This document shows positions 60,921-63,863 of a stretch of 64,000 nucleotides of DNA, piece by piece. This DNA is from Burkholderia metallica (GTDB lineage: Bacteria; Pseudomonadota; Gammaproteobacteria; Burkholderiales; Burkholderiaceae). The stretch is taken from contig NZ_CADFDB010000003.1 in assembly GCF_902832845.1 (NCBI RefSeq), positions 310,001 to 374,000 of the forward strand. The letters run 5' to 3'. How positions within the stretch are numbered: position 1 is the stretch's first letter; each line of letters starts with the position of its first letter. The translations under genes and the position numbers were made by a program. A model generated the notes under the pieces. It was not told the DNA's origin. It did no database searches and saw only the letters and a list, made by a program, of their open reading frames with translations.

Positions 60921-62387
60921 ATGAACATCATCGAACCCGGCATCCGCAACCTCGCGCTGGCGAAGGACATCCTGCTCACGCCGTACGGCCTCGACGAAAG
61001 CCTGCTCACGCGCACGATCGCCGACATCTTCACGCATCGCGTCGACTACGCGGACCTGTACTTCCAGGCGACCCGCAGCGAAGCGTGGAGCCTCGAGGAA
61101 GGCATCGTCAAATCGGGCAGCTTCAGCATCGACCAGGGCGTCGGCGTGCGCGCGGTCGCGGGCGACCGCACCGCGTTCGCTTACTCGGACGACCTGTCGC
61201 CGGAAGCGATCGCGCAAGCCGCCGCGGCCACCAAGGCGATCGCGGCGGCCGGCGGCGGCCGCCAGAAGATCAAGGCGGCGACGTCGCTGACGGGCATCTC
61301 GGGCCGCGACCTGTACCTGCCGTCCGATCCGCTCGCGTCGCTCGATGCGACGGCCAAGGTCAAGCTGCTCGAGCGCATCGAGCAGATGGCGCGCGGCCGC
61401 GACCCGCGCATCACGCAGGTGATGGCGGGCCTCGCCGGCGAATACGACGTCGTGCTGGTCGCGCGCAGCGACGGCGCGCTCGCGGCCGACATCCGCCCGC
61501 TCGTGCGCGTGTCCGTCACGGTGATCGCGGAACAGAACGGCCGCCGCGAGATCGGCTCCGGCGGCGGCGGCGGCCGCTTCGACTACGGCTACTTCACCGA
61601 CGACGTGCTGTCGCGCTACGTCGACGACGCCGTGCATGCAGCGCTCGTGAACCTCGACGCCCGCCCCGCGCCGGCCGGCGCGATGACGGTCGTGCTCGGC
61701 CCGGGCTGGCCGGGCGTGCTGCTGCACGAGGCGATCGGCCACGGCCTCGAGGGCGATTTCAACCGCAAGGGTTCGTCGGCGTTCGCCGGCCGGATCGGCG
61801 AGCGGGTCGCCGCGAAGGGCGTGACCGTCGTCGACGACGGCACGCTGCCGAACCGCCGCGGCTCGCTGAACATCGACGACGAAGGCAACCCGACGCAGTG
61901 CACGACGCTGATCGAGGACGGCATCCTGAAGGGCTACATCCAGGACACGCTGAACGCGCGCCTGATGAAGATGCCGGTCACGGGCAACGCGCGGCGCGAG
62001 TCGTACGCGGCGCTGCCGATGCCGCGCATGACGAACACGTACATGCTCAACGGCGACAAGGACCCGCAGGAAATCATCGCGTCGGTGAAGAACGGCCTGT
62101 ACGCGGTGAACTTCGGCGGCGGCCAGGTCGACATCACGAACGGCAAGTTCGTGTTCTCGGCCTCCGAGGCGTACATGATCGAGAACGGCAAGGTCACCTA
62201 CCCGGTGAAGGGCGCGACGCTGATCGGCAGCGGCCCCGAATCGCTGAAGGACGTCAGCATGATCGGTAACGACATGTCGCTCGACAGCGGTGTCGGCGTA
62301 TGCGGCAAGGAAGGCCAGAGCGTGCCGGTCGGCGTCGGCCAGCCGACCCTGCGGATCGACAGGATGACGGTCGGCGGTACGGCATAA
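60921..62387 (+). CDS. tldD: Metalloprotease TldD
   Basis: Zinc protease subunit that with TldE/PmbA forms a tunnel-shaped enzyme degrading unfolded peptides; in E. coli it matures microcin B17 and affects CcdA. The 488-residue protein has the HEAIGHGLEGD zinc motif (HExxxH), GVGVRAVAGDRTAFAYSDD near the N-terminus and a C-terminal IGSGPESLKDVSMIGND. ATG 60921 is preferred over a TTG 21 bases earlier. The partner gene is not in this window. A long-loop inverted repeat follows. Confidence 0.97.
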   Translation: MNIIEPGIRNLALAKDILLTPYGLDESLLTRTIADIFTHRVDYADLYFQATRSEAWSLEEGIVKSGSFSIDQGVGVRAVAGDRTAFAYSDDLSPEAIAQAAAATKAIAAAGGGRQKIKAATSLTGISGRDLYLPSDPLASLDATAKVKLLERIEQMARGRDPRITQVMAGLAGEYDVVLVARSDGALAADIRPLVRVSVTVIAEQNGRREIGSGGGGGRFDYGYFTDDVLSRYVDDAVHAALVNLDARPAPAGAMTVVLGPGWPGVLLHEAIGHGLEGDFNRKGSSAFAGRIGERVAAKGVTVVDDGTLPNRRGSLNIDDEGNPTQCTTLIEDGILKGYIQDTLNARLMKMPVTGNARRESYAALPMPRMTNTYMLNGDKDPQEIIASVKNGLYAVNFGGGQVDITNGKFVFSASEAYMIENGKVTYPVKGATLIGSGPESLKDVSMIGNDMSLDSGVGVCGKEGQSVPVGVGQPTLRIDRMTVGGTA

Positions 62388-62402
62388 CCGCATCGCCGCG
62401 CA

Positions 62403-62440
62403 GACATTCCGCGTATTTTGAAGAAAACGCGCGGAATGTC
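62403..62440 (+). terminator. Inverted repeat after tldD
   Basis: Bases 62403-62413 pair perfectly with 62430-62440 around a 16-base, A/T-rich loop; a short TTTTC follows shortly after. It probably ends the tldD transcript before the aroG promoter. Confidence 0.55.
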
Positions 62441-62461
62441 CGCATTTTCGACCACCCCCGG

Positions 62462-62490
62462 TTGCCAGCCGCGCGGCGACGGGGTATAAA
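62462..62490 (+). promoter_or_regulatory. Sigma-70 promoter of the aroG leader
   Basis: TTGCCA (62462-62467) and TATAAA (62485-62490) are separated by exactly 17 bases. Transcription should begin near 62497, about 30 bases before the leader peptide start. Confidence 0.75.
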
Positions 62491-62527
62491 TTCCGAATCA
62501 ACTTTTTTGACGAACTCCATTTCCGTC

Positions 62528-62593
62528 ATGTCCGCCAAGTTTTACTTTTACTTTTTTTGGCATCTCAGACCGTTGGCGGATCGAGAGGGTTGA
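62528..62593 (+). CDS. aroG attenuator leader peptide
   Basis: A 21-codon open frame whose centre reads KFYFYFFW: four Phe, two Tyr and one Trp codon within eight. Such clusters are the sensor of ribosome-stalling attenuation: when charged aromatic tRNAs are scarce the ribosome pauses here. It lies downstream of a good promoter, spans the first two RNA segments of an attenuator, and is followed by an intrinsic terminator and aroG. The ribosome site before it is weak. It is too short for routine gene calling. Confidence 0.82.
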   Translation: MSAKFYFYFFWHLRPLADREG

Positions 62594-62655
62594 TGGCGCG
62601 TCAAGCGCAACCGAAATTCCCGAAAAAACCGCCGGCGAACCCGGCGGTTTTTTTT
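62531..62655 (+). promoter_or_regulatory. Transcription attenuator of aroG (alternative hairpins)
   Basis: Segment 1 (62531-62538) pairs perfectly with segment 2 (62573-62580). Segment 2, as 62571-62579, can instead pair with segment 3 (62629-62637), nine contiguous pairs including two G-U. Segment 3 is part of the terminator stem (62623-62635 with 62641-62653) that ends in T residues. Stalling at the aromatic codons, which cover segment 1, would free segment 2 to form the antiterminator and allow aroG expression. Confidence 0.78.
62623..62655 (+). terminator. Attenuator terminator before aroG
   Basis: A perfect 13-bp stem (62623-62635 with 62641-62653), 5-base loop, ending in a run of eight T residues. 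It lies 30 bases after the leader peptide stop and 135 bases before aroG. Confidence 0.92.
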
Positions 62656-62789
62656 CGCCCTTCGCCAGCCGGTCGCCGCCGCAGCGACATCGCGGCCCCG
62701 ACCGAAACCACTGAATCGCTTGAATTGATGAATCTGCCGCACGCGCACTCGCACTGACCGAACGGCGCCCGGAACTTAGGAGAAACTGC

Positions 62790-63863
62790 ATGCCCCCGCA
62801 CAATACCGACGACGTCCGCATTCGCGAACTCAAGGAACTGACGCCGCCCGCCCACCTGATCCGCGAATTCGCGTGCTCCGAAGCCGCATCCGAGCTGATC
62901 TACAACGCGCGCCAGTCGATGCACCGCATCCTGCACGGGATGGACGACCGGCTGATCGTCGTCATCGGGCCGTGCTCGATCCACGACACGAAGGCGGCGA
63001 TCGAATACGCGGGCCGGCTCGTGAAGGAACGCGAGCGCTTCAAGGGCGAGCTGGAAATCGTGATGCGCGTGTACTTCGAGAAGCCGCGCACGACGGTCGG
63101 CTGGAAGGGGCTCATCAACGATCCGCACCTCGACAACAGCTTCAAGATCAACGAAGGGCTGCGCACCGCGCGCGAGCTGCTGCTGCAGATCAACGAGATG
63201 GGGCTGCCGGCCGCGACCGAATACCTCGACATGATCAGCCCGCAGTACATCGCCGACCTGATCTCGTGGGGCGCGATCGGCGCACGCACGACCGAGTCGC
63301 AGGTGCACCGCGAGCTTGCGTCGGGGCTGTCGTGCCCGGTCGGCTTCAAGAACGGCACCGACGGCAACGTGAAGATCGCGGTCGACGCGATCAAGGCCGC
63401 GTCGCAGCCGCACCATTTCCTGTCGGTGACGAAGGGCGGCCATTCGGCGATCGTGTCGACGGCCGGCAACGAGGACTGCCACGTGATCCTGCGCGGCGGC
63501 AAGACGCCGAACTACGATGCCGACAGCGTGAACGCCGCGTGCGCGGACATCGGCAAGGCCGGCCTCGCCGCGCGCCTGATGATCGACGCGAGCCACGCGA
63601 ACAGCTCGAAGAAACACGAAAACCAGATCCCGGTCTGCGCGGACATCGGCCGCCAGATCGCGGCCGGCGACGCCCGCATCGTCGGCGTGATGATCGAGTC
63701 GCACCTCGTCGAGGGGCGCCAGGACCTGAAGGAAGGTTGCGAGCTGACCTACGGCCAGAGCATCACCGATGCGTGCATCGCGTGGGACGACAGCGTGAAG
63801 GTGCTCGAAGGCCTCGCGGAAGCGGTGAAGGCGCGCCGCGTCACGCGCGGCAGCGGGAACTGA
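62790..63863 (+). CDS. aroG: 3-deoxy-7-phosphoheptulonate (DAHP) synthase, class I
   Basis: First enzyme of the shikimate pathway: joins phosphoenolpyruvate and erythrose-4-phosphate, committing carbon to aromatic amino acids. The 357-residue protein is of the AroFGH type: VVIGPCSIHDTKAAIEYA, RVYFEKPRTTVGWKG, GARTTESQVHRELASGL, GFKNGTDGN and the metal-binding IDASHANSSKKHENQ. AGGAGA lies six bases before the ATG. An aromatic-codon attenuator controls it from upstream. Which amino acid inhibits the enzyme cannot be told from sequence with certainty. Confidence 0.97.
   Translation: MPPHNTDDVRIRELKELTPPAHLIREFACSEAASELIYNARQSMHRILHGMDDRLIVVIGPCSIHDTKAAIEYAGRLVKERERFKGELEIVMRVYFEKPRTTVGWKGLINDPHLDNSFKINEGLRTARELLLQINEMGLPAATEYLDMISPQYIADLISWGAIGARTTESQVHRELASGLSCPVGFKNGTDGNVKIAVDAIKAASQPHHFLSVTKGGHSAIVSTAGNEDCHVILRGGKTPNYDADSVNAACADIGKAGLAARLMIDASHANSSKKHENQIPVCADIGRQIAAGDARIVGVMIESHLVEGRQDLKEGCELTYGQSITDACIAWDDSVKVLEGLAEAVKARRVTRGSGN

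Follow-up and report, generated by a model that had tools for sequence, protein, structure and literature searches.

A conserved attenuator-like leader upstream of aroG in Burkholderia metallica and related bacteria

How is the gene for DAHP synthase, the enzyme that controls entry into aromatic synthesis, regulated in Burkholderia? The genes for this step are under TyrR and TrpR in E. coli according to the available portions of PMC5343134 and PMC11802643, in agreement with the remark in a first-pass annotation that the E. coli enzyme is controlled by repressors. For aroG in the window, by which we mean the whole stretch of 64,000 nucleotides of Burkholderia metallica DNA that was analysed, the same annotation proposed attenuation by a leader peptide. 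The source genome is 7.55 Mb in size and encodes an AroG protein that is 98-99% identical to AroG of two named Burkholderia strains; the product is AroG-type on the basis of its NCBIfam score (609 bits against a cutoff of 568).

The tldD gene lies upstream of aroG on the same strand, with its stop codon ending at 62387, and the interval between the two genes holds, in this order, a hairpin, a promoter, a leader open reading frame (ORF), and an intrinsic terminator (Table 1). The segment that contains the hairpin (62390-62455) folds at -27.4 kcal/mol, and this hairpin is a possible tldD terminator. The elements that the first-pass annotation had placed before aroG can all be read in the sequence, namely a well-spaced promoter, a 21-codon aromatic-rich leader peptide ending in TGA (62591-62593), a terminator with a T tract, a perfect 8-bp stem between strands 1 and 2 (TCCGCCAA at 62531-62538 and TTGGCGGA at 62573-62580, with no mismatch), and an antiterminator of strands 2 and 3 (62571-62579 with 62629-62637) in which all nine pairs check out, two of them being G-U. 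The terminator arms, CCGCCGG (62629-62635) and CCGGCGG (62641-62647), are followed by eight T residues (62648-62655), into which a run of six A residues before the terminator can pair, and the structure as a whole (62629-62655) is located 134 nt before the aroG ATG. Strand 3 is common to antiterminator and terminator, which are mutually exclusive in the window. A stock scan of the window for promoters and terminators reported neither element of the aroG leader, in our reading because its rules accept only -10 boxes that end in T and extend the stem into the T tract; a purpose-written terminator rule did recover the terminator. The whole leader folds with a z score of -3.0 (one of 200 shuffles is as good), and no Shine-Dalgarno sequence was seen by inspection before the leader ATG in the window. 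Transcription is expected to start near 62497, which gives a predicted 5' UTR of about 31 nt. All four leader Phe codons (62540-62557) are TTT; the four window ORFs that were counted have TTT 5 times and TTC 68 times. Codon 16 of the leader (62573) is TTG in the window versus CTG in 57 of 59 leaders from the genus, and by reading, this T provides one extra pair between strands 1 and 2 and turns one pair of the 2:3 helix into a G-U.

Table 1. Features of the aroG locus, with positions in the window
Feature	Position	Strand	Basis
Hairpin directly 3' of tldD, then four T only; possible tldD terminator	62400-62443	+	Fold z -4.46; 0/200 shuffles as good
Promoter: -35 TTGCCA (62462-62467), 17-nt spacer, -10 TATAAA (62485-62490)	62462-62490	+	Sequence; close matches in Burkholderia-group and several Oxalobacteraceae leaders
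Leader ORF MSAKFYFYFFWHLRPLADREG, 21 aa, plus stop	62528-62593 (coding 62528-62590)	+	Sequence; 61/61 genus genomes searched
Control codons Phe-Tyr-Phe-Tyr-Phe-Phe-Trp (FYFYFFW)	62540-62560	+	Sequence; conserved in genus
Strand 1, pairs with 62573-62580	62531-62538	+	Perfect 8 bp here; no support as a general helix over 44 leaders
Strand 2: protector with strand 1, antiterminator with strand 3	62571-62580	+	Pairing in sequence; 2:3 covariation
Strand 3: antiterminator with strand 2, terminator with strand 4	62629-62637	+	Covariation of 2:3 and 3:4
Strand 4 and T tract of intrinsic terminator	62641-62655	+	Sequence; terminator rule; 3:4 covariation
aroG, DAHP synthase, candidate regulated gene	62790-63863	+	NCBIfam NF006723, 2e-183

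Defining a leader as an ATG ORF with at least five aromatic codons in ten, we surveyed 81 aroG loci (the window's own and the 80 whose AroG is most similar to it) and found the ORF in 49, a terminator in 48, and both in 45. The ORF stands alone in four loci (L032, L038, L056, and L077), the terminator alone in three (L052, L058, and L067), and neither is present in 29 (Fisher p = 2e-14, for loci that are related to one another). When 80 of the 81 upstream regions, one being too short, were shuffled 1600 times in all, the ORF appeared in 30 shuffles, a terminator in 13, and both in none; the slightly narrower terminator rule used for these shuffles finds terminators in 47 of the 81 real loci. 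An ATG ORF with seven aromatic codons in eight, as in the window, arose in none of 3000 shuffles of its upstream region. Inspection by eye shows a hairpin with a T tract at L038, missed by the GC rule, and a shorter aromatic leader at L067, both of which were kept out of the count of loci with both elements, and the ORF alone passes the rule in L032 (Rhodocyclus) and L077 (Entomohabitans). Named loci with both elements include Burkholderia, Paraburkholderia, Caballeronia, Trinickia, Cupriavidus, Janthinobacterium, Rugamonas, Massilia, and Noviherbaspirillum, together with Herminiimonas, Oxalobacter, Bordetella, Quisquiliibacterium, Dyella, Xanthomonas, Stenotrophomonas, and Devosia; relatives occur in Xanthomonadales and Devosia. 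The two elements were not seen together in the examined loci of Azoarcus, Thauera, Dechloromonas, Rhodocyclus, enterobacteria, and Photobacterium/Enterovibrio.

A covariance model built from 44 of these 45 leaders (L006 was dropped as a near-copy of L005) finds one full-length match in the source genome, at 114 bits. A second leader copy in this genome was considered and rejected, given that one of 31 matches is full-length and the others are partial, always taking in the terminator end. Matches are present in all 61 genomes of the genus that were searched, the source genome included. Of 300 genomes of the order (again with the source genome) drawn from a larger group, at least 80 besides the source have a full-length match. 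Of the 80 full-length matches listed, 76 lie on the same strand 22-145 nt before an aroG orthologue, and the remaining four, all from one genus, lie ahead of another gene. At the level of the class, seven of 369 genomes match at E 1e-6 in a scan that scored eight candidates per genome and may therefore underrate the spread; four of the seven are outside the order, and aroG adjoins the match in all four. The four stray matches (L123, positions 510-1331, and L124-L126, from four genomes) are full-length and have a leader with YFYWYRSS and a terminator, and the ORF behind them, which contains MNEVSDARQIAR and has no Pfam or NCBIfam match, is possibly an unrecognised aromatic-related gene. Three genomes of another genus (G022, G152, and G250 of g28) have two aroG-type genes in tandem behind the leader. 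Leaders before three DAHP synthase paralogues were sought and discounted, there being at most three aromatic codons in eight on either strand side tested; a terminator-like hairpin is present at one paralogue locus (L002).

The first-pass annotation had named loss of the Phe, Tyr, and Trp codons in close relatives as evidence that would count against attenuation. No such loss is seen: the FYFYFFW block, Trp included, is present in all 61 genus leaders, 59 of which were read by a script and the other two on re-inspection. Among the 59, codons F5 to W11 show synonymous variation at F5, Y6, and F10, and two nonsynonymous changes, F5L and F10Y, in one leader each. In the 76 aroG leaders from the order's other genomes, the densest ten codons include Phe in 76, Tyr in 67, and Trp in 33, where the peptides of L115, L168, and L171 were replaced or supplied by reading the DNA. 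Phe is near-universal, and the presence of Tyr and Trp depends on the lineage: each of the 16 leaders of families f23 and f49 has Trp, and all 17 of f11, f20, and f43 lack it. In 104 distinct leaders (114 with a terminator, minus two in which no 2:3 helix was found and eight duplicates), Trp accounts for 52 of 828 block codons versus 13 of 1052 flank codons, although these leaders had been picked partly by their density of Phe, Tyr, and Trp codons, so that Trp content entered into the choice. Decay or drift is evident in three leaders: L171 retains a single Phe codon, L115, from a 1.2-Mb genome, has no Trp and has Leu in place of the first Phe, and in L016 (Candidatus Burkholderia humilis) a frameshift follows FYFYF, with the ORF running on into the terminator.

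The comparison of 44 leaders gives moderate covariation support to the putative 2:3 and 3:4 pairings but none to 1:2 as drawn. In the 3:4 terminator, 96% of cells are paired and 18 show a double change, against a shuffled mean of 3.5; the values for the 2:3 antiterminator are 85.5% and 10, against 2.9. None of 500 shuffles reaches these double-change counts or the covariation scores for either helix, although relatedness of the leaders can inflate the cell counts. Pairs with a double change number three for each helix, a value reached in 107 (3:4) and 134 (2:3) of the 500 shuffles, and most core pairs never vary. The 2:3 score of 0.099 compares with at most 0.037 when the helix is slid, even though sliding by +1 and +2 yields as many double-change cells as the true register. 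For 1:2 as drawn, 65% of cells are paired (27 of 500 shuffles reach this) and the score is reached by 133 of 500. The drawn 1:2 stem fits the Burkholderia group; in other leaders any strand 1 would lie in a different register. A helix between the 5' UTR and GAGAGGG found little support, with a mean of -15.1 versus -12.9 kcal/mol for shuffled sequences and p < 0.05 in one of 13 cases.

The placing of the aromatic codons was examined with a thermodynamic model: the ribosome was stalled at each codon in turn, and the RNA lying 3' of it was folded, using three footprints. The modelled probability of the 2:3 helix is 0.99-1.00 with codons S2 to W11 in the A site, 0.62-1.00 at H12, 0.10-0.69 at L13, 0-0.44 at R14, and zero from P15 onward; the aromatic block therefore ends where strand 2 begins to be covered. 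A census of codon positions in 112 of the 114 leaders, eight of which are repeats, shows that the aromatic share, binned every 6 nt between 36 and 7 nt ahead of strand 2, is in turn 42, 78, 93, 68, and 30%, peaking 19-24 nt before strand 2, and drops to 2-4% from 6 nt before strand 2 to 11 nt into it. At the position of the 30% bin, a stall would already be starting to cover strand 2. Taken together, the model and the census indicate that a stall at the control codons would leave strand 2 free and that a stall at the stop codon would not. An earlier model, in which strand 1 could pair across the ribosome, gave 1:2 rather than 2:3 for stalls at F10 and W11, and this modelled outcome stands against full antitermination at W11; we set that model aside because a helix closing over the bound ribosome with little spare RNA seems implausible. 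At full length the fold always favours 3:4 (P 1.00), and antitermination must therefore be kinetic. RNA cut at 62640 in the absence of a ribosome forms 2:3 at 0.69 and 1:2 at 0.13, with the result that termination without translation is not clearly predicted.

Attenuation of aroG fits the established anatomy of the leader, its conservation before and association with aroG, and the placing of the aromatic codons, and the moderate covariation of 2:3 and 3:4 adds to this evidence. On the strength of these sequence features, the leader is very probably a ribosome-mediated transcription attenuator of aroG. The mechanism that we infer from the sequence, from the start site through leader translation, stalling, and read-through to the choice of which of the three amino acids act, would run as follows. 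Transcription would start near 62497, and a ribosome would follow on the 21-codon leader. When charged Phe- and Tyr-tRNA, and probably Trp-tRNA, are plentiful, the ribosome would run to the stop codon and cover strand 2, allowing strands 3 and 4 to form the terminator and turning aroG off. A shortage of any one of these tRNAs would make the ribosome stall within F5-W11, leaving strand 2 free to pair with strand 3 once the latter is made, so that no terminator forms and aroG is transcribed.

Promoter positions point to a variation on this scheme in many relatives. Of 117 leaders, 48 have their best -10 box ending 6-10 nt ahead of the ATG (7.7% in shuffles); these come from families f4, f10, f11, f13, f23, f39, f43, and f49 and from named loci that include Bordetella, Xanthomonas, Stenotrophomonas, Dyella, and Devosia. 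In 28 of 117 it ends 35-39 nt before the ATG (10.9% in shuffles), the distance in the window being 37 nt. The best score is 9 or 10 out of 12 in 37 of the 117 leaders and 8 or less, scores common in shuffles, in the rest. A -10 box 6-10 nt before the ATG suggests RNAs that start at or near the ATG, and hence leaderless translation, a reading based on predicted boxes that are often weak when taken singly. The aroR/aroF leaders of Corynebacterium glutamicum were reportedly called leaderless by Neshat et al. in 2014. The RNA of S. meliloti trpL starts at the ATG, as described in the available part of PMC7298713.

As to which amino acids the leader would sense, the control codons point to multi-input sensing of Phe, Tyr, and Trp, within which sensing of Trp is plausible. 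We tentatively put forward, as quite possible, a three-input OR gate for the aromatic family at the shikimate entry, in which a shortage of Phe, Tyr, or Trp would open aroG and Trp would be read at the last codon that leaves strand 2 free, and which would have been rewired by changes in leader codons (Phe only, Phe and Tyr, or Phe, Tyr, and Trp) over Burkholderiales, Xanthomonadales, and Devosia, with a leaderless start in many lineages. It is also possible, if somewhat doubtful, that the attenuator senses Phe only, perhaps with Tyr, and that the Trp codon is incidental and hardly affects aroG. The presence of Phe in every one of the 76 leaders from the order's other genomes, as against Trp in 33, speaks for such an arrangement, as do the position of Trp as the last control codon in the window, at the edge of the permissive range, and the C. 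glutamicum aroR leader, which according to the available part of PMC11802643 responds when Phe is limiting but not when Tyr is. Retention of Trp in all 61 genus leaders, however, argues for a role of this codon, as does its enrichment in the block (52/828 versus 13/1052 codons, in leaders partly picked by Phe, Tyr, and Trp density), and the thermodynamic model has a stall at W11 still leaving strand 2 free (P 0.99-1.00).

Two further readings concern the leader as a whole. The terminated leader RNA or its peptide might also act in trans in the manner of rnTrpL and peTrpL of Sinorhizobium meliloti, a precedent set out in the available part of PMC7298713, and within the Burkholderia group there is little variation in the C-terminal half of the peptide, PLADRE[GE], or in the codons for it. 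This conserved stretch nevertheless overlaps strand 2 and a possible 5' UTR helix, such that structure in cis may explain the conservation, and we consider action in trans improbable. That the terminator merely serves tldD and the ORF is untranslated can hardly be right, even though tldD, which has the same orientation, stops about 240 nt upstream of it and the hairpin straight after tldD has only four T residues. The codon block, the 2:3 pairing, and the spacing are conserved; moreover, the promoter lying between tldD and the terminator, and the leader and terminator that precede aroG outside the order without a tldD context, rule out a plain tldD terminator.

The attenuator that we favour would place under an RNA switch, reading the end products as charged tRNA, a step that is under TyrR and TrpR in E. 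coli. Because many lineages have the leader and its amino acid inputs differ between them, it constitutes a natural series for testing the gain and loss of attenuator inputs, and it might serve as a control point in strain engineering. Attenuation in proteobacteria has reportedly been the subject of a comparative study. We found no aroG leader from Proteobacteria in the freely accessible literature that was searched, and an earlier mention in subscription papers is possible. None is described in the available portions of PMC2965389, PMC10175445, PMC4603805, PMC5343134, PMC1173090, PMC1183508, and PMC12125101. The available part of PMC5688073 tabulates 82 B. cenocepacia 5' UTRs with short transcripts (Table S3), among which aroG may be present.

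No Rfam family (release 15) is found in the window at gathering, and no Pfam or NCBIfam family was found for the leader; identity with Phe_leader (RF01859) was rejected at 16.4 bits against a cutoff of 55 (E 3.8). The leader is a conserved attenuator-like element before aroG that matches no Rfam family and belongs to an already known type of attenuator. The ilvGMEDA and thrABC leaders resemble it in that one leader reads several amino acids, although they serve the branched-chain and threonine pathways. In the E. coli pheA and pheST leaders, as at aroG, a Phe-rich peptide is combined with competing hairpins and an intrinsic terminator. These leaders (Phe_leader, RF01859) differ in regulating pheA and pheST, as given in the available part of PMC11802643. 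The trp leaders of E. coli and S. meliloti trpLE(G) share the mechanism proposed here, and that of S. meliloti also shares the RNA start at the ATG (PMC7298713, in the part available) predicted for many relatives of the window. They differ, however, in having Trp codons and trp genes, and the window leader has its predicted 5' UTR. The nearest described counterpart is aroR/aroF of C. glutamicum, and for this reason we regard the aroG leader as a further case of a known attenuator type. There, a leader peptide with Phe-Tyr-Phe precedes the DAHP synthase gene aroF (available part of PMC4046766), and attenuation responds to Phe limitation, with no effect of Tyr availability even though the peptide has Tyr (the available part of the review PMC11802643; PMC7356990, likewise available in part, cites the same source, Neshat et al. 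2014, for this attenuator). The C. glutamicum leader, compared here by description only, differs in belonging to an Actinobacterium, in a reported motif without Trp, and in the lack of a Tyr effect. The idea of a DAHP synthase leader has precedent, because the C. glutamicum leader also stands before a DAHP synthase gene.
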